Source: a virus
Length of the DNA stretch: 24,285 bases
Strand: one strand, 5' to 3'
Virus record (IMG/VR): IMGVR_UViG_3300023240_000112
Span: 1 to 24,285 of that record
The position numbers were made by a program, and so were the translations under genes. How positions within the stretch are numbered: the stretch's first letter is position 1; every line of letters begins with the position of its first letter. This document shows, in pieces, positions 1-19,613 of this stretch. The notes under the pieces are model-generated. The model made no database searches, was not told the origin of the DNA, and saw only the letters and a program-made list of their open reading frames with translations.

Positions 1-1
1 T

Positions 2-109
2 TCGTTGTACAAAGATGGGGTGAAAATGAAAAACTCGGGAATGATAGCCTATGCTTGGTATGTATGGGAAAAGGGCTACTGCGGAAAACCTACAATAGAA
101 TGGATATAG
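2..109 (+). CDS. C-terminal fragment of a probable phage DNA adenine methyltransferase (5' end outside window)
   Basis: The frame is open from the window edge and ends at TAG 107-109, so only about 35 residues are seen. The fragment has the shape MIAYAWYVWEKGY followed by KPTIEWI at the very end. This aromatic '(A/F)W(F/Y)xWEKG....I.WI' ending is what I know from the C-termini of Dam-like/N-6-adenine phage methyltransferases, where it follows the catalytic core. The catalytic motif itself lies outside the window, so the substrate cannot be read. A second frame (1-150) is also open but shows no family resemblance. Such enzymes in phages usually modify the phage's own DNA against host restriction. 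The call rests on a short C-terminal pattern only. Confidence 0.5.
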   Translation, partial: SLYKDGVKMKNSGMIAYAWYVWEKGYCGKPTIEWI

Positions 110-171
110 TAGTATTACTTACAACTAACCGATATGAGTGCCTTTATTAAATGTAATTTAAAATCTAAACA

Positions 172-228
172 ATGAATAAAGAACAATTAGCAAAAACAAA
201 TGCAATCATAAATGGAGAGTACCGTTAA
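172..228 (+). CDS. Possible 18-aa micro-ORF
   Basis: An ATG at 172 opens an 18-residue frame (MNKEQLAKTNAIINGEYR) that ends at TAA 226-228 and overlaps the next ATG by one base (TAATG). A still shorter frame at 134-175 (13 codons) ends with an ATGA overlap at this start. The product is a charged, unrecognised peptide. Its only support is the coupled junctions and the lack of any other gene here; it could equally be leader sequence. Confidence 0.2.
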   Translation: MNKEQLAKTNAIINGEYR

Positions 229-308
229 TGTATAACGAGAATAACCAAAATAACCCCACTGACTGTGTAAAATGTGGGGAAATGATTAGGGATATAAGTA
301 TGTTTTAA
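228..308 (+). CDS. Small hypothetical protein with a CxxC pair (26 aa)
   Basis: The ATG at 228 overlaps the stop of the preceding micro-ORF (TAATG). The 26-residue product has an Asn-rich start and then CVKC-GE, a CxxC pair of the kind that can bind zinc as half of a ribbon. There are no other recognisable features. The 18 bases to the next gene (327) are A-rich and hold no Shine-Dalgarno sequence. It is included because the coupling and the cysteine pair are suggestive; a chance frame of this length is quite possible. Confidence 0.3.
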   Translation: MYNENNQNNPTDCVKCGEMIRDISMF

Positions 309-326
309 CATTTAAAAAAAGTAATT

Positions 327-488
327 ATGAAAGATTGGACAATAATACAAGAGAACGGAAAGTGGGGGGCAGTGCATGAAATGAGTAGAATAAAACTACC
401 TGCACTATATAACGACAGAAAGATGCTAAAGAAGATAATTAACGGAGTAACTAAAATACTTATAGACAATGGAAGAACACGAGATTAA
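327..488 (+). CDS. Small hypothetical protein (53 aa)
   Basis: ATG at 327, TAA at 486-488. It overlaps the start of the next gene (469) by 20 bases. The sequence begins KDWTIIQENGKWGAV and continues with a basic helical segment rich in Lys, Arg and Ile (LKKIINGVTKILIDN). I do not recognise a family. The A-rich leader without a Shine-Dalgarno motif is the same type as upstream of the other genes here. The position in an unbroken left-to-right gene chain and the reasonable composition support a real gene. Confidence 0.5.
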   Translation: MKDWTIIQENGKWGAVHEMSRIKLPALYNDRKMLKKIINGVTKILIDNGRTRD

Positions 489-684
489 ATGGGGAGACAT
501 GATTTTTCAGGTCTCCGGAATATATACAGAAGAAGAAAAAGGTACATACGAAAGTCCTTGCTACCCTCATTCATTTGAGATAGTGTCAGTATCTATAAAG
601 GACGGTATTGACATTGAGTATATGCTCAATGACTATGCGCTTGATAACTTAGAGACATTAATACTTGAGCAAAAATGGATGTAG
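469..684 (+). CDS. Hypothetical acidic protein (71 aa)
   Basis: A 71-residue acidic protein that starts inside the end of the 327-488 gene and overlaps the next gene start (675) by 10 bases, so translation of the three genes is probably coupled. It alternates beta-like hydrophobic stretches (IKWGDMIFQVSGIYTEEE, FEIVSVSIKDGIDIEYML) with a C-terminal helix. No catalytic or metal-binding motif is visible and I do not recognise the family. Confidence 0.65.
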   Translation: MEEHEIKWGDMIFQVSGIYTEEEKGTYESPCYPHSFEIVSVSIKDGIDIEYMLNDYALDNLETLILEQKWM

Positions 685-1013
685 TCAAGTCAATTATATT
701 ATCGCAGTTACTCCTTGAGAATAACGAAGAACTAAAGGGAACTAAGTTTTATAGACAAGAGCTTAAAAGAGACCTAAACAAAATAATAGGCTCATTAGAT
801 AAGTATTCACGTGAGTATTACGACACCTTATACAATAACGACAATGACATGGTGAATAATATCATGAACAGAATTGAAGCCCTCACAATGAAGCTATCAA
901 GCTCTACAATAGAAGACTTAATACTAATTGATGCGGTTATTGACAAGTACAATGAGAACAAGGAGTGGTTTAAAAAGCATGAGCAAGTTGAATTTTTAAA
1001 GATAAACCAATGA
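675..1013 (+). CDS. Hypothetical helical protein (112 aa)
   Basis: The product is predicted to be nearly all helical, strongly charged, with heptad-like Leu/Ile spacing around residues 30-85 (IIGSLDKYSREYY, IMNRIEALTMKLSSS). No transmembrane segment or known motif is seen. The start overlaps the previous gene by 10 bases and the stop overlaps the next ATG (ATGA at 1010-1013), which suggests co-translation. Family unknown. Confidence 0.7.
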   Translation: MDVVKSIILSQLLLENNEELKGTKFYRQELKRDLNKIIGSLDKYSREYYDTLYNNDNDMVNNIMNRIEALTMKLSSSTIEDLILIDAVIDKYNENKEWFKKHEQVEFLKINQ

Positions 1014-1237
1014 AAGCAAAACTAATCTTTAGTCTACCAAAGGACCAAGTTGATTTTAAATTAGCAAACGACGCAGGTAAAATGTATTTAGTTTTATGGG
1101 AATACAATCAATGGTTACGTCAAACAATTAAATACGCACCTGATGATTTAACAGATGAACAACTAGCTGTATATGCCGAGTGCGAAAGTCAACTACTAAA
1201 CATGATTAACGAGAACAATGTAAATTTAGATATATGA
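1010..1237 (+). CDS. Conserved phage protein of unknown function (75 aa)
   Basis: The order 'KAKLIFSLPKDQ..DF..A.....MYLVLWEYNQWLRQ.IKYAPDDL.DEQ...Y..CE..L...INE' is a pattern I recognise from many short phage proteins of unknown function. The shared core is a beta start, then a YLVLWExxQWLR helix and a DD-L-xDE segment. It has never been given a biochemical role that I know of. It is coupled by ATGA junctions on both sides (1010-1013 and 1234-1237). Confidence 0.75.
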   Translation: MKAKLIFSLPKDQVDFKLANDAGKMYLVLWEYNQWLRQTIKYAPDDLTDEQLAVYAECESQLLNMINENNVNLDI

Positions 1238-1593
1238 TAGGAGGAGCACAACCAAAATTAGTAGTTGCCTTTGATGAAGAAGGAAATATGCATTTAAACC
1301 CATTACAAGCAGAACTAATGGGAATTGATAAAAACCAACTTAATTGGAAACTGGTTAGAGAAAGAGATGGATTAACCAAACAATCTAAGGATATAAAGTG
1401 GGTAGAATGGAATGAGGATAATTTTTTTAAAGCAGACCACCCACAACCAAAGGTAGGTTATTCCTTAATTATGTCTCCATTTAATCAATATTTTACTTGG
1501 CAAACAACTATGATTACTGAGATAGTAGAACAAAGAGAGGATTATATAAAGTTTAAGACACAAAATTCAAACTACGAATTATTTAAGTTATGA
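1234..1593 (+). CDS. Hypothetical protein (119 aa)
   Basis: ATG 1234 overlaps the preceding stop (ATGA), and its own stop overlaps the next ATG (1590-1593). The product is soluble, rich in Trp and Asn, with mixed beta/helix character (KLVVAFDEEGNMHLNP at the start, SLIMSPFNQYFTWQT in the middle). No motif is recognised. Real on the basis of length, coupling and composition; function unknown. Confidence 0.7.
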   Translation: MIGGAQPKLVVAFDEEGNMHLNPLQAELMGIDKNQLNWKLVRERDGLTKQSKDIKWVEWNEDNFFKADHPQPKVGYSLIMSPFNQYFTWQTTMITEIVEQREDYIKFKTQNSNYELFKL

Positions 1594-1928
1594 AAAACAT
1601 AGTAATAATAATATACATAGTAACTGCAACAATCTACCATGCAGTAGCTGGGCAGACAGATGATACACCAGATATTACCGCAAGTGGCTTTGTAATTAAT
1701 CTTGAAAGACCAATGAGCCACCGAATAATAGCGGTATCACGCAATCTTGAGGCGTTAGGATTTAAAATGGGAACGAAAGTTTGTGTTACAAATGCTGGTA
1801 AAATGAACGGAGTATGGACTATTGAAGACAGAATGAATAAGCGTTTTACTGATAGAATTGATTTTTTAGTCAACAAAAAAATTAAATTAGGTAAGTGGAA
1901 TGATGTTAAAATAAAAAAAATAAATTAA
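1590..1928 (+). CDS. 3D-domain / RlpA-like double-psi beta-barrel protein, membrane-anchored or exported
   Basis: Residues 1-20 are a hydrophobic N-terminal segment (KNIVIIIYIVTATIYHAVAG) that can act as a signal or anchor. The remainder matches the 3D/double-psi beta-barrel fold: a TxYHAVxGQTDxTP opening, SHRIIAVSRNLE, a small loop with GTKVCVTNAG, and the signature GVWTIEDRMNKRFTDRIDFLV with two aspartates in the positions of the three-aspartate '3D' motif. Members of this fold include MltA- and RlpA-type peptidoglycan enzymes, so a wall-acting or envelope role is likely; catalysis is not proven from the sequence. It is coupled to the previous gene by ATGA. Its place in the replication arm, away from the virion genes, is a little unexpected for a lysis protein. 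Confidence 0.75.
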   Translation: MKNIVIIIYIVTATIYHAVAGQTDDTPDITASGFVINLERPMSHRIIAVSRNLEALGFKMGTKVCVTNAGKMNGVWTIEDRMNKRFTDRIDFLVNKKIKLGKWNDVKIKKIN

Positions 1929-1936
1929 TTTTACAG

Positions 1937-2332
1937 ATGATTATAGACGACATTTTTATCCAAGCAAAATTAGACTCTAATTCAGTCAAACTTGACACCG
2001 AGGTTTCCGAATCAAGATTGCTTTACGGAATTAAAATAATTAAGGAAATAAAAACACAAGCCATTTCAATATACGATACGGCAGTAGGAGGAGACAGATA
2101 CAAAGAACTAACCGAGAGCCAATATGTTGAATTTCAAAAAGGTTGGCGTGTTGGAGTATATAAAGTAAGGCTTGATGTTTATAGGGACAAGCTAAAAAAA
2201 ATAGAGAGAAAAATTGTAGATGAGCTTAATGGTAAGAACAATCCAACTCAACTGCAATTACTTAAAGATAACAAAAACAGAACAATCAAAAACTATTTTA
2301 AATTAACACAAAAATTAAATCAACATGAGTAA
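1937..2332 (+). CDS. Hypothetical protein (131 aa)
   Basis: A highly charged, helix-rich protein. Residues 95-131 are Lys/Arg/Asn-rich and may form a coiled coil (LKKIERKIVDELNGKNNPTQ). It begins 8 bases after the 3D-domain gene with an A/T-rich leader and overlaps the annealing-protein gene by 8 bases, so it is co-transcribed with the recombination cassette. No family recognised; a recombination accessory role would be guesswork. Confidence 0.7.
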   Translation: MIIDDIFIQAKLDSNSVKLDTEVSESRLLYGIKIIKEIKTQAISIYDTAVGGDRYKELTESQYVEFQKGWRVGVYKVRLDVYRDKLKKIERKIVDELNGKNNPTQLQLLKDNKNRTIKNYFKLTQKLNQHE

Positions 2333-2972
2333 ATCAGTATTTGAAACACTATCATCAATCAATGTCAATGACAAGGTTGAGCAAAAAGACAAACTAACTT
2401 ACCTGCCTTGGGCTTGGGCTTGGGCAGAAGTAAAGAAAGCATACCCAAGTGCTACCTATGGTATATACAAACACCCCGAGACCGGACAGCCTTACATTGA
2501 GGACAAAAACTTAGGGTATATGTGCTCAACTTATGTAAATATAGAGGGAGAAACTCTTGAGATGTGGCTTCCAGTGATGAACGGAGCAAACAAGGCAATG
2601 AAATCAGAGCCATATACTTTTCAAACAAGATATGGAGACAAGCAAGTAGAGGCAGCCACAATGTTTGATATCAACAAAACAATTATGAGATGCCTAGTAA
2701 AAAACCTAGCAATGTTCGGTCTTGGACACTATATATATGCTGGAGATGACCTACCTGAGTCAGCGGATACAGCAGCAACTGCCAACAAGGGAGCAACACC
2801 CGATAAAACACCAACTAATATTACCCTTGACATAGGAGATGATAATTGGGACAAGGTTTTAAAATATGTAGTAGCCAATAAATCACAAGGTCTTGAGGTT
2901 ATTGTTGGAACACTATCTAAAAAATATAAAGTAACATCAGAAGTTAAAACTGAGCTTAAAAAATCATTATAA
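2325..2972 (+). CDS. Sak/DUF1071-type single-strand annealing protein
   Basis: Residues 24-42 (LTYLPWAWAWAEVKKAYP), 63-93 (GYMCSTYVNIEGETLEM then WLPVMNGANKAM) and 104-140 (GDKQVEAATMFDINKTIMRC, LAMFGLGHYIYAGDDLPE) follow the DUF1071 consensus step by step. This family belongs to the Rad52-like Sak group of phage recombinases, which anneal complementary single strands. The C-terminal 65 residues are a linker (Thr/Asp/Asn) and a small helical tail of the kind that often contacts SSB. The stop codon shares one base with the next ATG (TAATG, 2970-2974), directly coupling it to the exonuclease gene, the normal partner of such annealers. Confidence 0.85.
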   Translation: MSKSVFETLSSINVNDKVEQKDKLTYLPWAWAWAEVKKAYPSATYGIYKHPETGQPYIEDKNLGYMCSTYVNIEGETLEMWLPVMNGANKAMKSEPYTFQTRYGDKQVEAATMFDINKTIMRCLVKNLAMFGLGHYIYAGDDLPESADTAATANKGATPDKTPTNITLDIGDDNWDKVLKYVVANKSQGLEVIVGTLSKKYKVTSEVKTELKKSL

Positions 2973-3727
2973 TGAAAGACATAGAGCTATTAAAAATAGA
3001 TGAGAATTACTATGGAGAAATTGGTCAGAAGTATCTGTCAAATTCAGACATAGGTACACTACTTACAGACCCAAGACAATTCCGTGTAAGAAAGAAAGAC
3101 AACGCAAATTTTGCCAACGGCAGACTTTTTCACCAGCTTATGCTTGAGCCTGATAAGGCTGTCAAATTTACTTATGTAGGAGTTTCCACAAGAACCACTA
3201 AAGTATATAAAGAGTTTCTATTAGAGAATAATATTGAATTTGCTATGCTTGAGCATGAGTACAATGCAATACACTCAATGACTAAATACGCTAAATCAAA
3301 TCTATTCTTTTTTGATAACGTAATAGGTAGAGAAGGAGAGAATGAAGTGCCGGGAATAAAAGAGATTAACGGAGTGCTATTCAAAGCCAAGGCAGATAGA
3401 ATAGTAGGTGATATTGTAATTGACATCAAAACCACAAGTGACATTAAAAAATTCAAGTGGTCTGCATATAATTACAACTATGACAGTCAAGCATACATAT
3501 ACCAAACAATTTTTGGTAAGCCTATGGTGTTTTTTGTAATTGACAAGAACGCAAAAGAAGACCGTAGAGGCAATATTTATTATGACATGGGTGTTTATCC
3601 TGTCTCGGAAGAGTTCGTGGCTTCAGGAGAGGCTAAGGTGGCCGCAGCGGTAAAAATATATAACAAGTTCTATTCACAAGAATCAAAAGAGAACATCGAA
3701 GACTATTTAATTAATTTAACACTTTAA
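2972..3727 (+). CDS. RecE/exonuclease VIII-like PD-(D/E)XK nuclease
   Basis: The 251-residue protein has the layout of phage RecE-type exonucleases: YLSNSDIGTLLTDPRQFR at the N-terminus, GRLFHQL with His54, then FKAKADRIVGDIVIDIKTT with Asp142 and Asp151-x-Lys153 as the metal-binding core, and YDSQAYIYQ (Gln173, Tyr177) as the QxxxY element. Such enzymes resect double-stranded ends 5' to 3' so that the annealing protein, here immediately upstream and coupled, can load. Together with the SSB-like gene 4 bases downstream this forms a compact recombination cassette. I see no missing key residue. Confidence 0.85.
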   Translation: MKDIELLKIDENYYGEIGQKYLSNSDIGTLLTDPRQFRVRKKDNANFANGRLFHQLMLEPDKAVKFTYVGVSTRTTKVYKEFLLENNIEFAMLEHEYNAIHSMTKYAKSNLFFFDNVIGREGENEVPGIKEINGVLFKAKADRIVGDIVIDIKTTSDIKKFKWSAYNYNYDSQAYIYQTIFGKPMVFFVIDKNAKEDRRGNIYYDMGVYPVSEEFVASGEAKVAAAVKIYNKFYSQESKENIEDYLINLTL

Positions 3728-3731
3728 TATT

Positions 3732-4016
3732 ATGAATGACCCAATTTTTGCAAACGGCTTTATTTTTAAGAAAAATGAGAAAGCCCCTGACTTTGTAGTC
3801 GGAAAATTATCAATGAACGTGGTGGAAGCCAAACAATTCTTGGATGACTATGCCAAGGGTGGATGGGTAAACACCAATATAAAGCAGTCTAAGGGAGGCA
3901 AATTTTATATTGAGCTCGATACATGGGAACCTAATCAAGATGCCGCAAAAGCCATCCCAGTAGCCAACGCCGAGGTTTTATCGCCAGGCCCAGTAAAAGA
4001 TGACTTACCTTTCTAG
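3732..4016 (+). CDS. SSB-like protein with acidic DDLPF tail
   Basis: 94 residues. The first 65 form a probable small beta-barrel (NGFIFKKNEKAPDFVVGKLS, GGWVNTNIKQSKGGKFYIEL, DTWEP), followed by a flexible Ala/Pro linker and a C-terminal KDDLPF. That acidic tip ending in Pro-Phe is the hallmark of bacterial SSB proteins, which use it to recruit partners. The position right after an annealing protein and exonuclease fits a single-strand binding role. The body is short for a classical SSB and I do not see its exact motifs, so the family remains a prediction. A terminator follows 24 bases after the stop. Confidence 0.65.
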   Translation: MNDPIFANGFIFKKNEKAPDFVVGKLSMNVVEAKQFLDDYAKGGWVNTNIKQSKGGKFYIELDTWEPNQDAAKAIPVANAEVLSPGPVKDDLPF

Positions 4017-4040
4017 GTAAATTATGACAAAGATAAACCA

Positions 4041-4066
4041 AGAGGGTGTAACAGCCCTCTTTTTTT
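4041..4066 (+). terminator. Rho-independent terminator after the recombination cassette
   Basis: AGAGGG (4041-4046) pairs with CCCTCT (4055-4060) across an 8-base loop, and the downstream arm runs into a seven-T tract (4060-4066). This is a short but classical intrinsic terminator, 24 bases beyond the stop of the SSB-like gene. It separates the recombination genes from the primase-helicase transcription unit. Confidence 0.75.
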
Positions 4067-4104
4067 GGCATGTCGAAATGTCGATTTTCTCCTTCCCTAT
4101 ACTC

Positions 4105-4139
4105 TTATATAAAATATATATTTATTATTATTATTTTTT
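4105..4139. other. 35-bp uninterrupted A/T tract, possible DNA-unwinding element
   Basis: Positions 4105-4139 contain only A and T, with alternating TA steps and then TTA repeats. It sits between the forward and reverse TGTCGA repeats. Easily melted tracts next to repeated protein-binding sites are common in origins; the region is AT-rich overall, so composition alone is weak evidence. Confidence 0.4.
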
Positions 4140-4159
4140 CCTGTAGGTGGATTAAAAAA

Positions 4160-4188
4160 TTGACATAATCGACACTTTTCAATAAACT
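4160..4188 (+). promoter_or_regulatory. Possible sigma70-type promoter for the primase-helicase gene
   Basis: A perfect TTGACA (4160-4165) is followed after 17 bases by TAAACT (4183-4188, four of six consensus positions). A reversed TGTCGA repeat (4169-4174) lies inside the spacer, where a bound protein would block RNA polymerase. Bacteroidota sigma factors prefer other boxes, so this match may be fortuitous, but a new start is needed after the upstream terminator. Confidence 0.3.
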
Positions 4189-4232
4189 CAATACTTTCAA
4201 GAGCAAAAAACGACCCTAAAATCGACATAAAA

Positions 4233-6641
4233 ATGACAGAAATCGTCACAATCTTTAAAAACATACGAGAAACAGCTACTCCGTTCCATAAAGATGTTCA
4301 TGTAATCCTTGACAGAATCAAGGAAGGAGCAAGTAAAGACATCGTAAAGAACATTAGAAGCGAAAAAAATAAAACAGAACGAAATGAAATTAAGAAACAA
4401 CTTCCGGCAATTTGTTTTAGTGGTAAGTTTAATAAAAGAAGTGATGCTTCTATTATTGAGCACTCTGGTATCATCTGCTTGGACTTCGATGGTTACGATA
4501 AACAGAAATACCTTCTGCAAGAAAAAGAGAACCTAACAAGAGACAAGTATGTATATTCGGTATTTATATCTCCTTCAGGCAATGGCTTAAAAGCCCTTGT
4601 TAAAATACCAAAGGACATTGACAACCACGTAAACTATTTTAACTCTTTAGAGAAGCACTTTAACTCAAAGTATTTTGACACCACAAGTAAGAATATAAGC
4701 AGAGTATGTTACGAATCGTATGACCCACTTATATACGTGAACTTAAACTCATCAATATGGAGTGAGATTGAGGACTTAGAGTATAAAGAGGTGGTTTCGC
4801 ACAGAGACGCTCCTACCATACCAATAACAGACGAGAATAAGGTGGTTGAGATACTTGTTAAGTGGTGGAATAAAAAATACCCAATGGTTGAGGGTAAAAG
4901 AAACGCAAATGTGTATGTATTAGCTGCTGCCTTCAATGACTATGGAATAAACAAGAGCCTTGCAGGGTATGTCCTAAACCAATACCAAACAAGTGACTTT
5001 CCTTTATCTGAGATAGCACAGACCATTAACTCAGCTTACTCAAATGCACAAAACTTTGGCACAAAGTACTATGAGGATGAGGAGAAGATAAACCAAATTA
5101 AACAGAGCTTACGCAGAGGAGCATCCAAGAAAGAGGTAAAGCAAGAGCTTGAGGAGTACAACCTCAGCCCTGACGTCATTGACAGCGTTCTATACAAAGC
5201 AGAAGAGGAGAACTTAAATGCTTCATTTTGGAATAAGAGTGACAAAGGTGCAATAAAAATAGTACATATACTTTTCAAGCAATTTCTAGAAGACAATGGT
5301 TTTTATAAGTACTGTCCAGAGGGTGGTAAAAACTATGTCTTTGTAAGGGTTACTAATAACCTTATTGACCATACATCAGAGAAAGAGATAAAAGATTTTA
5401 TTCTAAACTACTTAATTGTTCTTGATGATATTAGTATCTACAACTACTTTGCAGACCAAACAAGACTATTCAAAGAGGAGTTTCTTACGCTCTTATCAAC
5501 TATTGATATATACTTTATTGAGGACAAGAAAGATACTGCATATCTTTACTACTTAAATTGTGCTGTTCGTATTACTAAAAATGAGATAGCGCCTATTGAT
5601 TACCTTGACCTTGGCGGTTATGTATGGAAAGACCATGTGATAGACAGGAACTTTCAGATATGTGAGGTAACTAACTGCGACTACAAAACATTTATTAATA
5701 ATATATGCGGTAAAGATGATAACAGAACAATATCAACGGAGAGTACCATTGGCTTCTTATTACATGCACACAAGAACCTATCCTATTGCCCAGCAGTAAT
5801 ACTAAACGATGAGGTAATAAGCGACAACCCTGAAGGGGGAACTGGAAAGGGTTTGTTTATGAATGCACTATCTAAGATGAAAAAGTTAGTGACAATCGAT
5901 GGAAAATCATTTACATTTGAGCGAGCATTTGCATATCAGTTGGTGTCAGCAGACACCCAGATACTATGCTTTGATGATGTCAAGAAGTACTTTGATTTTG
6001 AGAGATTATTTAGCGTGGTAACAGAGGGCCTTACTCTTGAGAAGAAGAATAAAGATGCTATCAAGATACCATTTAGTAAGTCTCCAAAGATTGCTATAAC
6101 AACTAACTATGCAATTAAAGGAGCTGGAAATTCATTCGCTAGGCGTAAGTGGGAGCTAGAGCTACACCAACACTACAACAAATCATACACGCCATTAGAT
6201 GAGTTTAAAAAACTAATGTTCGGTGATTGGAACGACAATGAATGGTGTCAGTTTGACAACTATATGATTGGATGTCTTCAGAGCTATCTACATTCAGGAC
6301 TGAAGAAAAGTAAGTTTGTGAACTTAAAGATTAGACAGCTATCGGCAGAAACTTCTCATGATTTCATTGAATGGTGTGGTCTTATTGAGGGACATGAGCA
6401 TAACAAGAACCTTAATATTGACGAGAAGATGTATAAGCAAGAGCTGTATCTTGATTTTATTCAAGAGTACCCAGACTACAGACCAAACTCAAAGATGACA
6501 ATATCAAGGACTAAGTTTTATAAGTGGCTTATAGCTTACTGCTTGTACAAAGAGGGTATTGTTCCTGAAGAAGGCCGTGATACTGGTGGTAGATGGATTA
6601 TAATTAAAAAGAAAAATGAACAACAGAAGATAGAAATATGA
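4233..6641 (+). CDS. Primase-helicase: BT4734/VirE_N-like primase fused to a superfamily 3-type helicase
   Basis: 802 residues. The N-terminal part (about 50-180) looks like the BT4734/VirE_N primase-type domain of Bacteroidota elements: CLDFDGYD (84-89, acidic metal ligands), SPSGNGLKALVKI (113-125) and RVCYESYD (157-164), the three spaced motifs of archaeo-eukaryotic-type primases. Residues 200-330 are a helical linker. The C-terminal ATPase has a P-loop NPEGGTGKG (532-540), Walker B ILCFDD (577-582), a sensor ITTN (622-625) and an arginine pair (637-638), in the order found in D5/SF3-like phage replicative helicases. It would unwind and prime at the fork. The start is chosen at the ATG after the AAAATCGACAT repeat; no Shine-Dalgarno is present. 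It overlaps the next gene by ATGA. Confidence 0.85.
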   Translation: MTEIVTIFKNIRETATPFHKDVHVILDRIKEGASKDIVKNIRSEKNKTERNEIKKQLPAICFSGKFNKRSDASIIEHSGIICLDFDGYDKQKYLLQEKENLTRDKYVYSVFISPSGNGLKALVKIPKDIDNHVNYFNSLEKHFNSKYFDTTSKNISRVCYESYDPLIYVNLNSSIWSEIEDLEYKEVVSHRDAPTIPITDENKVVEILVKWWNKKYPMVEGKRNANVYVLAAAFNDYGINKSLAGYVLNQYQTSDFPLSEIAQTINSAYSNAQNFGTKYYEDEEKINQIKQSLRRGASKKEVKQELEEYNLSPDVIDSVLYKAEEENLNASFWNKSDKGAIKIVHILFKQFLEDNGFYKYCPEGGKNYVFVRVTNNLIDHTSEKEIKDFILNYLIVLDDISIYNYFADQTRLFKEEFLTLLSTIDIYFIEDKKDTAYLYYLNCAVRITKNEIAPIDYLDLGGYVWKDHVIDRNFQICEVTNCDYKTFINNICGKDDNRTISTESTIGFLLHAHKNLSYCPAVILNDEVISDNPEGGTGKGLFMNALSKMKKLVTIDGKSFTFERAFAYQLVSADTQILCFDDVKKYFDFERLFSVVTEGLTLEKKNKDAIKIPFSKSPKIAITTNYAIKGAGNSFARRKWELELHQHYNKSYTPLDEFKKLMFGDWNDNEWCQFDNYMIGCLQSYLHSGLKKSKFVNLKIRQLSAETSHDFIEWCGLIEGHEHNKNLNIDEKMYKQELYLDFIQEYPDYRPNSKMTISRTKFYKWLIAYCLYKEGIVPEEGRDTGGRWIIIKKKNEQQKIEI

Positions 6642-7873
6642 TAACATACAGAGACTATCAAATTGATATTATAGTTAAGGCTTGTGATATATTAAATGAG
6701 CATAATTTTGTTTATTTAGCCATGGAGGTTAGGACAGGCAAGACTCTGACCTCCCTTGGCATAGCCAACAAAATGACTGATATAAAGAATGTTTTGTTTG
6801 TAACAAAAAAGAAAGCAATCTCAAGCATACAAAATGACTATGATTTAATGGACTCATATTTTGACTTAACAATCGTAAACTATGAAAGCCTACATAAGAT
6901 AGAAGGTGAGTTTGACCTTGTGGTGTTAGATGAATCGCACTCAATGGGTGCTGCACCTAAGCCAAGTAAACGTGCTAAGCAGGTAAAGGAGATGTTAAAA
7001 AAAGACAACCCCTATGTAATCCTATTGTCTGGTACGCCAACTCCTGAGTCATATAGTCAAATGTACCACCAAGTGTACGGAATAAAGTACAACCCATTTA
7101 GTAAGTATGCTAACTTCTATAGATTCTGCGATGACTATGTAAACGTAAAGAGTAGGCCGATTAACGGTATGAATATAAAAGATTATTCAGATGGTAAGCC
7201 TGAGATAATTCAAGCTATGCAGCCATACACAATAAACTTTACACAGAAAGAAGCTGGATTTATAACAAAGACAACCGAGAATGTGCTTTATGTTGACATG
7301 ATGCAACAGACATACGACATTGCAAAAAAATTGCAAAAAGAGCTTGTAGTTCAAGGTAAAGATGAGGTAATACTAGCAGACACTCCGGTTAAGTTAATGA
7401 TGAAACTTCACCAGATTTTTTCTGGTACAATTAAATTTGAGAGTGGAAACTCAATGATATTAGACACTAGTAAGGCTGAGTTTATAGCGTATCACTTTAA
7501 AGATAAGAAGCTCGGTATATTCTATAAGTTTAAGCAAGAACTTGAGGCTTTAAAGCAAGTCCTTGGAGAGGAGCTTTGCACTACCCTTCAGGAGTTTGAT
7601 AGTGGAAGTCACAAGATTATAGCTCTTCAGATTGTGAGTGGGCGTGAAGGCATAAGCCTTCGTAATGCTGACTATATTGTCTTCTATAATATTGACTTTA
7701 GTGCTACCAGCTACTGGCAAGCAAAAGACCGTATGACTACAAAAGACAGATTAGAAAATGATGTGTATTGGATATTCTCCAAAGGAGGCATAGAGTCAGA
7801 TATATACAAGGCTGTCACTAAGAAGAAAGACTACACACTTAAACATTTTAAGAATGACTTTAATAAGAAATAG
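6638..7873 (+). CDS. SF2 helicase/ATPase, SNF2-like
   Basis: 411 residues containing both RecA-like lobes: YRDYQ (4-8, Q-motif), EVRTGKT (30-36, Walker A), LFVTKKKA (Ia), VVLDESH (95-101, DExH Walker B), LLSGTPTP (129-136, motif III), and in the second lobe VSGREGISLRNADYIVFYN and QAKDRM as motifs V-VI. This is the compact SNF2-like ATPase found in many phage replication modules, where it translocates on duplex DNA in replication or recombination. It is coupled to the primase-helicase by ATGA and overlaps a nuclease gene by 20 bases; in other phages the same helicase and nuclease types tend to be neighbours. Confidence 0.85.
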   Translation: MITYRDYQIDIIVKACDILNEHNFVYLAMEVRTGKTLTSLGIANKMTDIKNVLFVTKKKAISSIQNDYDLMDSYFDLTIVNYESLHKIEGEFDLVVLDESHSMGAAPKPSKRAKQVKEMLKKDNPYVILLSGTPTPESYSQMYHQVYGIKYNPFSKYANFYRFCDDYVNVKSRPINGMNIKDYSDGKPEIIQAMQPYTINFTQKEAGFITKTTENVLYVDMMQQTYDIAKKLQKELVVQGKDEVILADTPVKLMMKLHQIFSGTIKFESGNSMILDTSKAEFIAYHFKDKKLGIFYKFKQELEALKQVLGEELCTTLQEFDSGSHKIIALQIVSGREGISLRNADYIVFYNIDFSATSYWQAKDRMTTKDRLENDVYWIFSKGGIESDIYKAVTKKKDYTLKHFKNDFNKK

Positions 7874-8246
7874 TAATCAAGTCAAGCAAACCATTGATTT
7901 TAGCGGCATACAAAACGGAAAGATACACCCAAGCGATATTGACGCTGTGTTGGAGTTTAATAATGAAGCACTCATATTAATGGAGGTCAAACGAGAGGGC
8001 AACGACATGCCTATCGGACAAAGGTTATTACTTGAAAGAATTTGTGATAGTTGGCACACTGAAAAAAGTATCGTATTATTTGTGAATCATTCTTTTAAAA
8101 ATGACACTAAAGATATACCTTTGGTAGAGTGCTACGTATCAAAGGCTTACAGCAAAGGCAAATGGACAAGTGTTCAACCTGAACTACTTACCTCTGTTTT
8201 AAATAAGATTGGAATTAATTGGGATATAAAAAAACTATCAATATGA
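7854..8246 (+). CDS. PD-(D/E)XK nuclease-like protein
   Basis: 130 residues. The core GKIHPSDIDAVLEF (22-35) followed by ALILMEVKREG (39-49) gives Asp28/Asp30 and Glu44-x-Lys46, the restriction-endonuclease-fold catalytic pattern, and GQRLLLERI (55-63) can be the helix after the active site. I recognise this as a recurring phage nuclease-like protein encoded next to SNF2-like helicases. The start lies within the end of the helicase gene (20-base overlap). Its substrate is unknown; branched or broken replication intermediates are the natural guess. Confidence 0.7.
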   Translation: MTLIRNSNQVKQTIDFSGIQNGKIHPSDIDAVLEFNNEALILMEVKREGNDMPIGQRLLLERICDSWHTEKSIVLFVNHSFKNDTKDIPLVECYVSKAYSKGKWTSVQPELLTSVLNKIGINWDIKKLSI

Positions 8247-8452
8247 AATACAAATCATCAGAAATAAATCAACATGAGATTGTGTACTGCGACTTAATAG
8301 TTGAGAAAGAAAATAAAAAAGGAAAAAGAATTATAATTGAAGAAGAAGAAATAAAGAAAGTAGTTTATAAGGAATTGGACGGCTACCATAACAAGAAAAA
8401 AGTAATAGATGTAATGGTAAAAGCAAGGCTAGGATATTCATTTAATAGATAA
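8243..8452 (+). CDS. Small basic/acidic hypothetical protein (69 aa)
   Basis: The start is set at ATG 8243, which overlaps the preceding stop as ATGA; an in-frame ATG at 8219 would lengthen it by 8 residues but overlap the nuclease gene by 28 bases, which is less like its neighbours. The product has a charged middle (KENKKGKRIIIEEEEIKKVV) and a basic end (MVKARLGYSFNR). No family recognised. It lies 3 bases before the DnaA-like gene. Confidence 0.6.
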   Translation: MKYKSSEINQHEIVYCDLIVEKENKKGKRIIIEEEEIKKVVYKELDGYHNKKKVIDVMVKARLGYSFNR

Positions 8453-8455
8453 GAT

Positions 8456-8977
8456 ATGAAAGGTTTTTTAAAAGAAATACCTCTTGAGTTAATACATAAG
8501 TATGTAGAGGATATATACAATATAGAAATAAAGTATAATACAAAAAAAGAATACTACGTGGAAGCAAGAGCACTATTTGCTTTCTTGTCTTGGAATAATT
8601 CTTTTGAGTCTAAGTCAAGTATAGGAAGGCAAATAAACAGAGACCATGCTACAGTGATACACTATATAAATAATCTTCACTATGTTTTTTATATAAGAAG
8701 TAAAAAGTACAAGGAATCAATTATTCAATTTGAAAATTTAAAGAATCAATACATAAAAATAAATGAGGAAAAAGAAATTGAAGAATATGACTTTGTTAAA
8801 TTTTCAAATAAAATTGAACAACTTGAGAATGATAGTGAAATCTTAAATAAAAAAATAAAAGATTTAGAAAAAAAAGTTATTATCACTAGTGTATTTCACG
8901 ACATAATATGTAAAATACCGATTGATAAGACTGAAATTGTCAAAGAAAGATTAGAGGCAATGATAAAAATGTTTTAA
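8456..8977 (+). CDS. DnaA domain IV-like DNA-binding protein with coiled coil
   Basis: 173 residues. Residues 33-75 (YYVEARALFAFLSW, SKSSIGRQINRDHATVIHYI) follow the DnaA domain IV helix-turn-helix: an 'ARxxxxxLSW' helix, an 'SxxxIGRxxNRDHATVIH' recognition unit, and a closing helix. The RDHATV stretch (62-67) corresponds to the DnaA RDHTTV signature that contacts the DnaA box. No AAA+ ATPase (domain III) is present. Residues 110-150 are Lys/Glu-rich with heptads and should form a coiled coil for oligomerisation. It probably binds DNA at an origin or promoter, of phage or host, but cannot itself melt DNA. It ends an operon segment; the next gene has its own promoter box. Confidence 0.75.
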   Translation: MKGFLKEIPLELIHKYVEDIYNIEIKYNTKKEYYVEARALFAFLSWNNSFESKSSIGRQINRDHATVIHYINNLHYVFYIRSKKYKESIIQFENLKNQYIKINEEKEIEEYDFVKFSNKIEQLENDSEILNKKIKDLEKKVIITSVFHDIICKIPIDKTEIVKERLEAMIKMF

Positions 8978-9004
8978 AAAACAACAAGAAACTAAATTAA
9001 TTTA

Positions 9005-9012
9005 TATATTTG
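9005..9012 (+). promoter_or_regulatory. Bacteroidota-type -7 promoter box (TATATTTG)
   Basis: TATATTTG fits the TAnnTTTG -7 consensus of Bacteroidota promoters and lies 7 bases before the ATG at 9020, implying a very short or absent leader. No convincing TTTG -33 element is seen 19-21 bases upstream. The location, in a 42-base gap between genes, supports it. Confidence 0.45.
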
Positions 9013-9019
9013 TATAGTT

Positions 9020-9163
9020 ATGAAGATATCAATAAAGACATACAACTCAAAATACTCAGTAGAAATGAGAGATGAGGTTAATTTCATGGAGTTTATGGAA
9101 GAGGTGAAAGCCCTAACAAAAACAATATGGGCAGCTGACCAGGTAAATGATTACTGGGAATAA
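9020..9163 (+). CDS. Small hypothetical protein (47 aa)
   Basis: ATG 9020 to TAA 9161-9163. The sequence starts with a beta-like KISIKTYNSKYSVEMRDEV and continues with an amphipathic helix containing MEFMEEVKALTKTIWAADQ. The length and the surrounding spacing (11 bases to the next ATG) suit a real gene. It would be the first gene read from the promoter box at 9005-9012. I do not recognise a family. Confidence 0.55.
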   Translation: MKISIKTYNSKYSVEMRDEVNFMEFMEEVKALTKTIWAADQVNDYWE

Positions 9164-9174
9164 AATAAAATACT

Positions 9175-9411
9175 ATGCGTGGAACACAGATTCACTACGA
9201 AGCTACTGGAGACTATGATGTCATAGACTTCATACAAGATTACAATATCAACTTCAATAAAGGCAATGCAATCAAGTATCTTGTCAGGGCAGGTGTAAAA
9301 ACAAAAGACCCTATACAAGACTTGTACAAGGCAAAGGATTATATTGAAAGAGAAATAGCTTTCCATAAAGAGAAGACAGGAACTAACTGGGTATCTAACA
9401 AGACTGAGTAA
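9175..9411 (+). CDS. DUF3310 family protein
   Basis: 78 residues with the DUF3310 pattern: an IHY near the start, VIDFIQDYNINFNKGNAIKYLVRAG (positions 16-40) and a following DLYKAKDYIEREI helix. This small all-helical family is very common in phage replication modules and resembles MazG-type folds in outline; some members have been called nucleotide-kinase or SaV-like, but no reaction is established. The gene shares one base with the downstream nuclease gene (TAATG). Confidence 0.75.
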   Translation: MRGTQIHYEATGDYDVIDFIQDYNINFNKGNAIKYLVRAGVKTKDPIQDLYKAKDYIEREIAFHKEKTGTNWVSNKTE

Positions 9412-9650
9412 TGACTGAGCAGCAGATACAAGCAAAGAGAATAAAGCAGCTTGAGTCTGAGGGTTATTACGTAATTAAACTAATCAAAACTAACAAGAAT
9501 GGAATCCCCGACCTAGTGGCTATACCACCTGACTCGGGGGTTTTGTTTAGTGAGGTTAAGACTCCAAAAGGAGTAGTGTCAAAGCTTCAACAGTATAGAA
9601 TAAAAGAATTATCAGAACACGGATTATTTACTGAAATATATAGAGGATGA
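9411..9650 (+). CDS. VRR-NUC domain nuclease
   Basis: 79 residues, a complete minimal VRR-NUC domain: an N-terminal helix, then NGIPDLVAIPP with Pro33-Asp34, VLFSEVKTPKG with Glu48-x-Lys50, and SKLQQYRIKELSEHG with Gln60-Gln61. These are the metal and substrate residues of this PD-(D/E)XK subgroup, which in other proteins (FAN1, phage stand-alone versions) cleaves branched DNA such as Holliday junctions or flaps. Stand-alone phage copies are of this length. It is overlapped by ATGA with the next gene. Confidence 0.85.
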   Translation: MTEQQIQAKRIKQLESEGYYVIKLIKTNKNGIPDLVAIPPDSGVLFSEVKTPKGVVSKLQQYRIKELSEHGLFTEIYRG

Positions 9651-9880
9651 TATATACAATAAAAGACATAGAAAAAATAACAAACTTTAAAACTTGGAGC
9701 GATAGGCAAAAAGTAGATGAATTACTTAGAATTGATGCAGACATATATTGTAATCTAGGTAGTGAGTCTACAAAAGCTGATAAGGAGGAAGCCAAAAAAA
9801 AGTCCAAAAAAATATATAGAGCTATAAAAGATATAGACTATCTGACCGGACTATCTTTCTTACATGTAATAGACCTATGA
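9647..9880 (+). CDS. Hypothetical protein (77 aa)
   Basis: Coupled by ATGA on both sides (9647-9650 and 9877-9880). It is lysine-rich and helical, with SESTKADKEEAKKKSKKIYR in the middle, and contains a single Cys. It could bind nucleic acid by charge, but no motif supports a function and I do not recognise the family. Confidence 0.65.
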   Translation: MIYTIKDIEKITNFKTWSDRQKVDELLRIDADIYCNLGSESTKADKEEAKKKSKKIYRAIKDIDYLTGLSFLHVIDL

Positions 9881-10065
9881 AACTAAGCCCTTTAGAAAAC
9901 AAAAGACTTCAGAACATTAACTTTTTAATGGATGAAATTCACTCACTATCAAATGAAATCTACGAATGTTTAGTAGACAGTGAGTATAACCGATTAAAAC
10001 TAGAAACAAATGCTCTTATAAGGAAGCTAAAGGGGCTATCAGACTCAGTTCAAGATGACATATAA
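9877..10065 (+). CDS. Hypothetical helical protein (62 aa)
   Basis: A short, wholly helical protein with Leu/Ile heptads (LENKRLQNINFLMDEIHSLS, LETNALIRKLKGLSD), suggesting a small coiled-coil dimer. It starts with an ATGA overlap and overlaps the phosphoesterase gene by 11 bases. No family recognised. Confidence 0.6.
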   Translation: MKLSPLENKRLQNINFLMDEIHSLSNEIYECLVDSEYNRLKLETNALIRKLKGLSDSVQDDI

Positions 10066-10771
10066 AGAATCAAGACCACGTCTTAGTGGTAATAAAAGAT
10101 TTGCCTACGAGAATTTAGTTAAAGACGAAAGAAGAATCCTAGTGGTAGGAGATATACACGCTCCATTTGAGCTTGATGGTTACTTTGATTTCTGTAAAAA
10201 GACCTACGCAAAGTATAACTGCAACCAAGTTATATTTATAGGTGACATCATAGACAATCACTACTCATCTTTTCACGCCACCGACCCAGATGGTATGGGT
10301 GGAGGATATGAACTTGACTTTGCTGTTGAGCAAATATCTAAGTGGGCTGATGAGTTCCCGGTAGCTGACGTATGCATTGGAAACCACGATAGAATAATTA
10401 TGCGTAAGGCTTTTGATTCTCAAATACCAAGTCGCTGGATTAAGCCATATAATGAGGTATTAGGCACGAACTGGAGTTGGGTAGAACAAGTTGTCTATGA
10501 CAACGTACAATACGTTCATGGCGAAGGTGGGACAGCTAGAACGAAGGCTAAGAATGATATGATGTCCACTGTGCAAGGACACATACATACTCAGGCTTAT
10601 ACTGAGTGGATGGTAGGTAAGAGGTTTAGAATATTTGCAACTCAAGTAGGATGTGGCGTTGACTCAAACGCATACGCTTCTGCTTATGCAAAACATTTTA
10701 AAAAGCAAGCCATTGGTTGTGCTGTTATTCTAGGTGGACACACCTCTATAAATTGCCTAATGGAGCTATGA
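10055..10771 (+). CDS. Calcineurin-like metallophosphoesterase
   Basis: 238 residues carrying the full metallophosphoesterase signature in order: VGDIH (Asp33, His35), IGDIIDN (Asp64, Asp67), GNHDR (Asn110, His111, Asp112), VHGEGG (His155) and GHIH (His176, His178). These bind two metal ions and hydrolyse phosphoester bonds; substrates in phages range from nucleotides and 2',3'-cyclic phosphates to DNA ends. The position beside nuclease genes suggests a nucleic-acid role, by inference only. It overlaps the upstream gene by 11 bases and the next by ATGA. Confidence 0.85.
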   Translation: MTYKESRPRLSGNKRFAYENLVKDERRILVVGDIHAPFELDGYFDFCKKTYAKYNCNQVIFIGDIIDNHYSSFHATDPDGMGGGYELDFAVEQISKWADEFPVADVCIGNHDRIIMRKAFDSQIPSRWIKPYNEVLGTNWSWVEQVVYDNVQYVHGEGGTARTKAKNDMMSTVQGHIHTQAYTEWMVGKRFRIFATQVGCGVDSNAYASAYAKHFKKQAIGCAVILGGHTSINCLMEL

Positions 10772-11148
10772 TTTTTGAGTCAGAAAAAGATACAAAGTTA
10801 CAAAAAAATGCGATACAATGCTTTGTCAACCTATTCAAGGGTGATTTTATGCGTCTATCCCACACTGACGTAGATTATAAGGTCTTTGATAAAGATAAAA
10901 ACCTTATAGCTTATGCCGACATTATAGTTGAAAACAAGAGTCTTAGAGACGCTTACCCCTTAACAATAGGTGTGCGTAAATTACTGAAGCTATCAGACAA
11001 GAGACTAAATCCAGTGGTGATATGGTATTGCACAGATGGAATTATATATAGTAGGGTAAACCAAATATCAGGTGAGATTAAGTGGACTAATGAAGAACTC
11101 ACCGCCCACTACTCAAATAAAAAGCAATTCAAGTACGTAAGACTTTAG
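10768..11148 (+). CDS. Small nuclease-like protein (126 aa)
   Basis: The start is placed at ATG 10768, which forms an ATGA overlap with the phosphoesterase stop; an upstream in-frame start at 10717 would overlap that gene by 55 bases. The core SHTDVDYKVFDKDKNLIAYADIIVENKSL (31-59) offers Asp34/Asp36 and Glu55-x-Lys57, a plausible PD-(D/E)XK active site, followed by a helix (TIGVRKLLKLSDKR) and a strand (NPVVIWYCTDGIIYSRV). I recognise the layout from phage proteins of unknown function; the nuclease call is an inference. It is the last plus-strand gene: its stop (11146-11148) abuts the stop of the convergent virion gene. Confidence 0.55.
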   Translation: MIFESEKDTKLQKNAIQCFVNLFKGDFMRLSHTDVDYKVFDKDKNLIAYADIIVENKSLRDAYPLTIGVRKLLKLSDKRLNPVVIWYCTDGIIYSRVNQISGEIKWTNEELTAHYSNKKQFKYVRL

Positions 11149-14100
11149 TTACTTTTTCTTTAGATTCTTTTTTATTTGCTGATTCTTATAGTAGCTTGAC
11201 CCTGGCCCATAAATTTTATTATAAAGCTCTTTATTTATTTTCTTTAAATCCTCTTTAGAAATTTTATTTGTCTTAGGGTCTTTCTTAGTAGCTATCTTCA
11301 TATTCCTGTCTGTAAGATACCCAACCTCTGAGGGTAGTGCTCCAGCTAAGAATAACATATAAGCAACTGCATTTACTTTCATGGCATCTTGGTCTACCTT
11401 ACTTAATTTAGTGACACGCTCTTTACCCATGAATGTCTTTTTTGACTCTCCATTTTTAGCCATTAATATCAACTCCTTCATTGTTCCTAGCTTTTGACCA
11501 GCGATACCTAAGACTCCTAACTGTTCAGATAAAGTCTTTTCATCGTTAGCAAAGAACTGGAATGGGTCATCACTATCTTGAACTAAATCAATTATACCAT
11601 TCACAACCTGCATACCTGGGTCATTCATTACGGGCAAAGGTATGAGTATATCCGACACTATATTGCCAAGCTTACCTGTCTTTTGGAATCCTTTTCTTAT
11701 TTTCTCATCCTCCTCAGACTCCTCTTTACCCATCATTGCAAATGAAGCCGCAACAAGAGCCTGTGATATAGCGTAAGATATGCCATTGAAAGCGATTGTC
11801 TCAGCGGCAAGTCCACCTAAAGACTTTCTTGCATTTGTTTTGTCCTCTGGTGTAGCAACATCACTTCTAAGAGTTGTTATGTCAGAGTACATTCTACTCT
11901 TTTGGTTTAATAAAAAGTTTGCAAATGGGAAGAAAACCTTACGAGACAACTGTACGTATGGATTTTGACTAGTAAATAAATCCCCTTGCAGGTCTTGGTC
12001 TGAAACGTTCTGCTGTCTATCTACTTCTTTCTGAGCGTAAGTAGCAGCACTCATATCCCACTGATGATTATTCCAATCAATATTCTCAACCTCTACTCCA
12101 TTCTTTTTTAATTGTTGAAAGTAGTACGCAAAAAATGAACTTCTTGCAGTAAGTACGTCTGGATTTACTAATGTGTATTTTATCCATTGCTTACTTACAT
12201 CATCTAAAGCTTTAACCATTTTACCACTATTGCTTGTTGGTAAGTTATTTAGCTTATTATTTATACTCTTTAAGTCAACTAAAGACGCAACACCTCTAGT
12301 AGATACAGCTATACCAAGATTATTTAAAGCCGCATTAGCCTCTATATTTGTCCCAGCAGTTTTAGCTCCAAGATAAGTGTTCTCTATGCCAGCGTTAACG
12401 GACGTGTTAACAAAAGGAACGAATTGTTTTATAGGCTGAGTTAAACCACCTAGAGTTCTAGCGACACCTATTGTAGCTACTTTGTTTATTACATTAAGAA
12501 AGTCCTCCTCTGTTCTGCTGAGTCCAGAGACACCTCTCTTTATGTCAACATATTTTTTAATTCTCTCCTCTACTATTTGTCTATCTTTTTCATTTGGAAA
12601 TATTTCAGCGTAAGCATCAGTACTTTGAAATCCTTTTATCTGTCTTATAGGACCTGCTGTATTAGCATCAATTAAAGCAGATTTAAGTCCACTAAAGTTA
12701 TTGGAATAGAAACTATAGTTGACATACCTGTTAGGCTTTCCATCAGCCTTTCGTAAGGTCTTAGGTTTTGTTGACTCTTTTAATACACCTGTTTTTTCGT
12801 CGTATATAGCTCTCTTACTACCCTCTGGATTGTATATAGCCTCAGTTATATCGGGAGTGTCCTTTGTTTTTTTAAGTCTTGAGTAAGAACGAGGAGTATA
12901 GAATACTTCATCTCCTAATTTTTTATTGTAAAAGTTTAGCGAAACATCTTTTAGTTCCGGGTAGAACTCACTCCAAACTTTAACAGTCTCATTTAAAATA
13001 GTTATATTATCCTTGTCTACCTTAGCCTCTACATCCTCTATGGTATTAGAGTCTTTTAATATTTTGTCATAAACTTCTCTGTATACCTCTCCTAATTTTA
13101 CTTTCTTGTCGTCTTGAGAAGCTAATAAATCTTCATAGGATTCTCTTGCTATTTGTTTGTTTCTTTCAAACTCAGCCTGCCTCTCTTCTTTTGTTCCATC
13201 TACTGTTCTCTTGACATCAGCATACATACCAATCTCAGTATTATTATAAACACTAAAAGGGTCTTGATTATTAGGAGTGAACTTCTTTACTTTTTTAACT
13301 AACTTATCAAAAACAATCTCTGCTTTTTTAGCGCCACTTGACGCCCCGAATATAAGAGCCTCCAACCCCATAGCCTCCATCACTTCATTGGCTCTTGTTT
13401 TAGACTTGAATAGTATTTCAAAAGCATTATTTAAGTTACTTATATTTTTTATCCATGCTTGAGCTTGAGATTTTGCTGTTCCAAATATATTAAGCTGCTT
13501 AGCCGCTATTCCCTTTTTTGCTACCTTATTGCTTTCTAAAATACCATTGTATTCCGATACCATAGCGCTCATACCTCCAGTAGTTGCATTACTAGCAAAG
13601 TTAATTAACGCATCAAGAGCTACCATTTTTTGCTTTGCATTGAGTAGGTCTAGATTCATATTTATGAAATCATTTGCTATCTCTTTTTGTTTCTTTGTAA
13701 ATGATATACTCTCACCTGTAAATGGGTCAAGTCCAATCTCTAGTTGTTTATCAACTATGTTTGAGTAAACATCAAAAGCTTTTTTAAGACCGTCAGTTAT
13801 TTGTTTTTCTTTTTCATTAGCTGCCTTTTCTGATGTCGGCTCGTCCATATTATATATGATTGAACGCATCTCAGCTAAAGAAAAATCTCTTGCAGAAAGT
13901 CCAGTTAAATCTTCAAAAGCTTCTTGCTCAACTTTAACTTTTATTTCATTCTGTCTATTAAGAGCGTCAAAAGAATAGTCCTGCATATTTTTTAAATCTA
14001 CAGCAGGCGTTATACTGGCTCTAGTAGTTGGTCTGAGTCCCTGACTTACTTGTGAAGCCACTGATATGTATTCATTTATATCCTCAACAAGCCATGGGTC

Positions 14101-17040: not shown

Positions 17041-17053
17041 ACTTTATTCGTTT

Positions 17054-18877: not shown

Positions 18878-18880
18878 ATC

Positions 18881-19612
18881 TTAAATAGGTTTATTAAGTG
18901 TTATTATGCCAGCGTCTACTAACTTTTGAATCTCTTCCATACTCATTCCGCTTGACGAAGTTATAGAACCTGCTTGATTTTTATTATTTAAAATATCAAA
19001 TACTCCACCTCCAGTTGCGTTTCCATTTTGATTTAAACCAGCGGAATTAGCTTCTTGTTTTTGTTCTCTATATAAAGGAACAAGCTCTTCTAATGCTATT
19101 TCTCCAAATTTAGTTGCGCTAACAACGCCTTGCTGTATAGCTGCATTTCTTCTTCTCTCAGCATCTTTAGCGGCTTGTTGAGCTCCTTGTGCCTCCATAA
19201 GGTCTATAGATGATAAATCTTGAGCTATTCTTGCATCTTCTGCTGCAGCTGCTTTCTCAAGACCTAACATATCTTGACCCATAGCTGCAGCTATTTGTCT
19301 TTGACCAGCTTGTTGAGCTGCTTGAACTCTTCCTGCTGTAGCTCCTGCGCCCCTTACATCGCCTTCTACTCCAGCTTGTAATGCTTGTGCTCCAGCCGAT
19401 ATTAAGGCTTCTCTTTCAAGCTCATAAGGTTCTTTTTGTATAGACAAACCTTCAGCATAGTTAACACTTAATTTTTTCTTAGCTTCAGCTACTGATTTTT
19501 CAGCTTCCTTCTCTGCTTTTTCTTGAAGATTGTTTTGTTTAGCAGCTTGACTAAAAGATTGTACTGCCGAACCGACTGAAATTGCTGCTGATATTGCTGT
19601 GAATACCCCCAT
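18881..19612 (-). CDS. Internal core protein (243 aa), T7 gp14-like
   Basis: The N-terminus is a short hydrophobic/alanine segment (MGVFTAISAAISVGSAVQSF), followed by a long Ala/Gln/Glu-rich helix (residues 25-165; stretches such as GATAGRVQAAQQAGQRQIAA and AKDAERRRNAAIQQG). The C-terminal 70 residues are Asn/Gly/Ser-rich and end with a small helix. This plan, a hydrophobic N-terminal helix plus long Ala/Gln-rich helix, is typical of the smallest T7-type ejection protein (gp14), and the two larger proteins follow directly. It is separated from the upstream acyltransferase gene by a single base. Confidence 0.65.
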   Translation of the reverse strand: MGVFTAISAAISVGSAVQSFSQAAKQNNLQEKAEKEAEKSVAEAKKKLSVNYAEGLSIQKEPYELEREALISAGAQALQAGVEGDVRGAGATAGRVQAAQQAGQRQIAAAMGQDMLGLEKAAAAEDARIAQDLSSIDLMEAQGAQQAAKDAERRRNAAIQQGVVSATKFGEIALEELVPLYREQKQEANSAGLNQNGNATGGGVFDILNNKNQAGSITSSSGMSMEEIQKLVDAGIITLNKPI

Positions 19613-19613
19613 A

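Follow-up and report, generated by a model that had tools for sequence, protein, structure and literature searches.

In P4, the alpha protein combines a primase, an SF3-type helicase and a C-terminal winged helix in one polypeptide, and there are two cis sites, ori and crr. In SPP1, G38P binds to both oriL and oriR, which are 12 kb apart, and according to the account of these sites, forks may stall at oriR when it is bound, which may set off recombination-dependent replication (PMC3485210). Lambdoid origins carry iterons by an A/T tract, bound by the phage initiator O (PMC7466680). In the PLE satellites of Vibrio cholerae, the initiator domain and the origin were described to covary (PMC8263062). 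Here we analysed a gap between two genes in a viral DNA stretch of 24,285 nucleotides (the window, meaning the whole stretch). An earlier note on this DNA had proposed that the gap is an origin or a repressor-controlled switch. We consider it rather likely on sequence grounds (probability roughly 0.7) that in this gap lies one member of a pair of iteron arrays, and that the pair serves as the replication-origin system in a large group of tailed, uncultured phages, whose hosts are probably Bacteroidota, as judged from gene families and named relatives. The anatomy fits initiator-binding origin arrays because it unites helically spaced iterons, an A/T tract, an IHF-like site, a likely initiator gene next to the array and a second array; arrays that work like oriL/oriR of SPP1 or ori/crr of P4 are our best reading.

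SPP1 is the nearest working analogue. It is similar in having one origin-binding protein for two distant arrays (7.8-15.9 kb apart in the present phages; the comparison covers layout and proteins), and 25 of 50 records of relatives likewise carried the site as two arrays far apart. It is also similar in its recombination-dependent second stage, an annealing protein and an exonuclease being encoded here too. However, oriL of SPP1 lies inside the initiator gene whereas the present arrays are intergenic, with no origin inside the coding sequence of the likely initiator, and the SPP1 initiator is separate from helicase and primase whereas the likely initiator here is a primase-helicase fusion. P4 resembles our phages in its primase, helicase and C-terminal winged helix in one protein and in its two cis sites (a comparison of protein domains and sites), but the primase family here is BT4734-like and the fold match is tied with unrelated winged helices. 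Lambdoid origins share the iterons beside an A/T tract and the phage initiator (predicted here), though the lambda origin is a single site of 4-6 iterons inside gene O. The PLE system differs in the satellite's RepA_N initiator, the one described origin and the lack of a primase-helicase.

Layout of the gap before the primase-helicase gene

The gap (positions 4017-4232 of the window) comes after an operon of SSAP, exonuclease and orf94 and before the gene of an 802-aa primase-helicase. Much of what the earlier note had listed in it was found as claimed. An intrinsic terminator (4040-4061, + strand, fold z = -3.1) closes the operon. It is followed by two inverted iterons, TCGACA on the - strand at 4071-4076 (TGTCGA on the + strand) and, 8 bp from it, a second one at 4079-4084 (-). 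The latter is within an exact 11-base inverted pair (4078-4088 and 4218-4228, 129 nt between). Then comes the pure A/T tract of 35 b (4105-4139), a putative DNA-unwinding element. To its right, on the + strand, TTGACA (4160-4165) and TCGACA (4169-4174; TGTCGA on the - strand) form a direct pair at 9 bp. The next stretch (4175-4199, +) is the position of a central element, where relatives have ACTGATAATCARTNAGTTA and the window copy has diverged. A degenerate and doubtful iteron, CGACCC (4211-4216, +), was placed by alignment about 12 bp before the following iteron, TCGACA (4222-4227, +; TGTCGA on the - strand), which in turn stands 11 bp before the last one, ATGACA (4233-4238, +). This last iteron overlaps the start codon of the primase, and the array, otherwise intergenic, touches the primase coding sequence only there. 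The array model R1, made from sequence only, matched 4157-4238 (+) with 49.6 bits and an E value of 9.5e-15, the window being among the 29 rows of its seed.

The window contains four copies of TGTCGA, two each way as claimed before, and all of them are inside the gap (4071-4076 +, 4079-4084 +, 4169-4174 - and 4222-4227 -). The frequency of this word elsewhere had been named as a refuting test, and the rest of the window held none. The clustering is unusual while the total is not, since shuffles of the whole window gave 4.2 sites placed anywhere. A Poisson estimate for four copies in 274 b versus zero elsewhere was 7e-10, for a word chosen post hoc. As the repeat unit, the hexamer stood only as a local form; the real unit is a longer iteron, here A-T-Y-G-A-C-A-T. 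A sigma70-like promoter had also been proposed, with its '-35' on the first iteron of the direct pair. The match itself, TTGACA-17-TAAACT, is present at 4160-4188. However, it carries no weight, since positions 1-20000 contained 59 such matches and shuffles 70.4, and a promoter of this type was rejected because the match frequency is at the level of chance. An RNA element was dropped as a reading of the gap, as the search of the window against Rfam gave no match. At the edge of the window, a Pro-Val/Pro-Thr dipeptide-repeat protein is encoded at 23618-24283 (-).

Relatives and the second array beside groEL

A scan of IMG/VR with the primase yielded 129 relatives, of which 80 were kept. The repeats are kept in these phages, conservation being the other refuting test that had been named. 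In the ~350 b that precede the primase, the density of TGTCGA was 17-fold that of the remaining sequence of the relatives' loci (80 in 28,168 b vs 155 in 920,634 b, near-duplicate rows counted). In the shared architecture, a terminator is followed by one or two inverted copies and the A/T tract; next come a direct pair spaced at 9 bp, the conserved 19-mer ACTGATAATCARTNAGTTA and iterons at 11-bp spacing, the last of them at the start codon or close to it. Among 47 upstream regions made non-redundant (<80% alike), there were 32 RACA pairs at 9 bp vs 2.6 in shuffles (maximum 9), and 50 pairs at 11 bp vs 2.8 (maximum 8). As in origins of the iteron type, the short repeats of these 47 relatives are in a regular, helically spaced register, and an A/T-rich tract adjoins them, namely the 35-b run in the window and its counterparts in the relatives' arrays (median best 50-b A/T fraction 0.90, 40 arrays). 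The strict inverted pair to the left of the A/T tract was found in only 9 of 40 primase-side arrays and 9 of 26 arrays of the groEL side (see next). No array near the primase was seen in loci L045, L048, L053, L056 and L072; two of these share a conserved noncoding stretch, tattgactttgcatcggctgtaccgcagttcgggatatatattagg (L048 8853-9380 and L072 12422-12929). In Elemovirus NC_055853, whose primase is a 39% match, the searched stretch had no such array, and this virus has a separate gene for an initiation protein.

The central 19-mer ACTGATAATCARTNAGTTA contains WATCARNNNNTTR, which we take to be the IHF consensus of E. coli. On the array strand, this exact E. coli consensus occurs in 22 of 40 primase-side and 24 of 26 groEL-side arrays, with shuffle means of 1.5 and 1.1, respectively; the window array, with its diverged central element, has none. 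The 19-mer as a phylum-wide repeat was rejected, as ACTGATWATCARTNAGTTA occurred in one of 99 Bacteroidota genomes and that one was the chosen centre. Among the matches listed, the genome contigs that match the G form are nearly all from Bacteroidota. The form ACTGATAATCAGTNAGTTA is rare and, among the matches listed (L083-L202), nearly confined to Bacteroidota; several of its matches are directly 3' of an apparent tRNA 3' end, and the genome of Olivibacter sitiensis alone accounts for about 30 of the listed loci, most of which lie close to contig ends. R1 matched none of 99 Bacteroidota genomes at 1e-4 under strict filters with at most 46 candidates scored per genome, a setting that leaves prophages possible.

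The array HMM was run over all collected loci, and among those gathered by the 19-mer alone some matches precede the primase and seven adjoin groEL. In the complete genome MW202828.1, there is one primase-side and one groEL-side array, at 53.6 and 42.7 kb. When R1 was searched in 50 whole records, 47 had a match, and in 25 both sites carried an array, the two being on one strand without exception. Both arrays were present in 22 of the 28 records of at least 50 kb, and three of the remaining six (G020, G035 and G036) show the groEL-side array. The distance between the two arrays was 7.8-15.9 kb (median 10.7, 25 records), counted in 12 of the 25 across the record ends on the assumption of circular or permuted genomes. 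The second array of the window itself is not visible, as the window is a 24-kb fragment, and the twin arrays are known from its relatives. The two matching arrays in one orientation about 10 kb apart, together with the encoded annealing protein and exonuclease for recombination-dependent replication, would also suit sites of segregation, packaging or fork barrier, oriR-like on both sides, where replication does not start. We regard this as quite improbable, since the A/T tract and the IHF-like site are parts of an origin and one array adjoins the likely initiator gene.

Of 34 stretches examined, 25 hold groEL, six the primase and three neither; the 25 and MW202828.1 make up the groEL-side set of 26 arrays, in which those of L371 and L372 were placed by R1 coordinates because the HMM had missed them. 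All 26 arrays are opposite in strand to groEL and 126-1134 nt from its start. Beyond the array, a small conserved ORF was found on the opposite strand in 21 cases and on the same strand in none, and was not found in five. Where the far neighbour is known, the groEL-side array therefore reads toward no gene, since groEL and the small ORF are both on the other strand. This ORF has 60-70 aa, for example at L253 6665-6874 (-). In L236, L296 and L369, the sequence just past the groEL-side array looks like the start of a tRNA gene. In L323, which covers part of MW202828.1, a complete second array by the phage groEL (2625-2805, i.e. 42625-42805 of the genome) is followed by GC-rich low-complexity sequence, and half of the TGTCGA sites of this locus cluster around the array.

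This second position bears on the view that the repeats are regulator sites for transcription of the primase operon with no role in initiation. A promoter is expected in a gap with a terminator before it and an operon after it, and the iterons do overlap the start codon. However, the whole array recurs by groEL, reading away from it and, in 21 of 26 cases, with the small ORF encoded on the opposite strand, L060 and L064 lack a primase-side array and carry the one by groEL, and the sigma70 match, seen at both array sites with its '-35' coinciding with an iteron and its '-10' with the IHF-like site or its vicinity, does not exceed chance as a repressor-controlled promoter would demand. We judge a purely regulatory role improbable. 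The first half of the earlier proposal, an origin, is supported and extended, having come through both refuting tests, whereas the operator or switch half is weakened by the recurrence at a place with no gene after it and by the chance-level match. Cumulative GC skew, suggested as a further check, placed no origin. The minimum bin of MW202828.1 (43 kb) adjoins the groEL-side array, but gene strand switches there too, and the turn of the skew in the window coincides with the switch of gene strand near 11.1 kb; since skew follows gene strand in both, it is not evidence for an origin.

The candidate initiator and the repeat word

The gene that adjoins the array starts at 4233 and ends at 6641 (+). 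Its product, the likely initiator by position and type, is a BT4734-like primase with a DUF5906 (SF3-like) helicase and a predicted C-terminal winged helix. BT4734-like_N and DUF5906 were above the Pfam cut-offs and PriCT_1 was below threshold, so that primase and SF3-type helicase are in one protein as in P4 alpha. Walker-like and SF3-like motifs could be read in its sequence. BT4734-like is placed among archaeo-eukaryotic primase families outside the named clades (PMC5862659). The replication neighbourhood comprises SSAP, exonuclease, primase-helicase and an SNF2 helicase. The C-terminal 153 residues were modelled as a winged helix (pLDDT 82). Among 471 PDB chains, the origin-binding domain of P4 (1KA8) was in row 7 (Z 4.8, rmsd 3.5, 73 aligned residues), tied with unrelated winged helices; the predicted fold is thus consistent with that domain but is not a membership in the P4 type. 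Foldseek alone gave nothing below E 0.001 for this C-terminal model. The full-length fold model was poor (pLDDT 66.6), and the whole primase had no match among solved structures.

The iteron words are radically different between lineages (TCGACAT, TCAACAC, TGAACAT, GTCAT, GCACAAA and ACAGAAA), and within a genome they agree. The base before ACA (G/A class, with a 0.5 cut chosen after inspection of the data) agrees between the two arrays in 23 of 23 genomes (r = 0.80). Each trait has four changes on the tree, but strongly supported branches hold only two independent pairs. For distant clades, where the stretch upstream of groEL was taken from 10 records, the primase-side and groEL-side words agree by eye in all eight genomes that have both: GCACAAA in L038, ACAGAAA in L054, TCAACAC in L065, GTCAT in L075, L063 and L068, and TGAACAT in L059 and L069. 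Furthermore, a word-blind test based on shared 7-mers with at least two G/C, whose statistics ignore shared ancestry, showed that an array is 2.03 times as similar to its own partner as to those of other genomes (31 genomes; permutation p = 5e-5, at the floor). The own partner was the top-ranking one in 11 of 31 genomes and among the first three in 18. As a control, the stretch 300-600 b upstream of the primase had no own-genome excess in 17 genomes (6-mers, 0.165 own vs 0.170 other).

Residue 763 (numbering of the window protein), in the predicted recognition helix, is Y in 26 of 26 proteins of one word class and non-Y in 16 of 16 of the other, the classes being made by hand with the residues in view. 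In the word-blind test it ranked 4th of 517 columns. Under a strict regular-expression class it fell outside the 12 best rows, and sister-pair tests gave nothing. With hand-made classes perfect, the word-blind rank 4th and the strict rule failing, its tracking of the word is a lead only. Binding of the arrays by the C-terminal winged helix of the primase-helicase is probable as predicted from the model. Another phage protein, such as the product of the small conserved ORF or the DnaA-C-domain protein, may bind the same arrays instead; this is unlikely, though it deserves some weight, as binding by the primase is a prediction, the 1KA8 match is weak and strict rule-based classing does not reproduce the association between residue 763 and the word. 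Against it, the primase-helicase is of a predicted initiator type with a predicted winged helix, and residue 763 does rank high when words are ignored. The DnaA-like protein, named as the binder in the earlier note, is not supported: tblastn found it in only 29 of 78 relatives, some of whose loci end before its possible position, and the gap has no DnaA box as a DnaA-dependent oriC would, the sole window match to the DnaA-box-like TTWTNCACA being at 264.

Proposed mechanism and significance

From this anatomy we infer origin activity and the identity of the binding protein as well as unwinding, bending and autoregulation, in the following way. A phage initiator, most likely the adjacent primase-helicase, would bind the 9-bp direct pair and the 11-bp-spaced iterons via its C-terminal winged helix, with a host IHF/HU-like protein bending the site that separates the two. 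Melting would occur in the A/T tract, which lies between the inverted copies and the direct ones, and the helicase would then load and prime. The groEL-side array, about 8-16 kb off and in the same orientation, would bind the same protein, either serving as another origin or forming a barrier by which the replication mode is switched. Since the array runs into the start codon, initiator bound there would dampen its own gene.

In the literature searched, we recognised no paper that describes this array or two origins in such phages, nor did we see described there a primase-helicase initiator combined with two arrays whose word changes repeatedly and in concert. Tentatively, and at somewhat less than even odds, we propose a previously undescribed twin-origin system with a self-contained AEP primase-SF3 helicase initiator and two arrays of fixed geometry, in which the recognition word has repeatedly been replaced, in both arrays together. 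These replacements may follow changes at a few positions in the recognition helix of the C-terminal domain, and the pressure behind them perhaps came from satellites, or from nucleases that target origins, which mimic the specificity of the initiator. Origins of uncultured phages are rarely placed, and the anatomy seen here offers a signature of a two-site origin that a wide phage group shares. The natural series of words, in which the geometry is constant and only one reader is a candidate, would make a change of initiator specificity without loss of the origin directly testable. It may also be of use in assigning phage satellites, and defences that target origins, to the respective phages.
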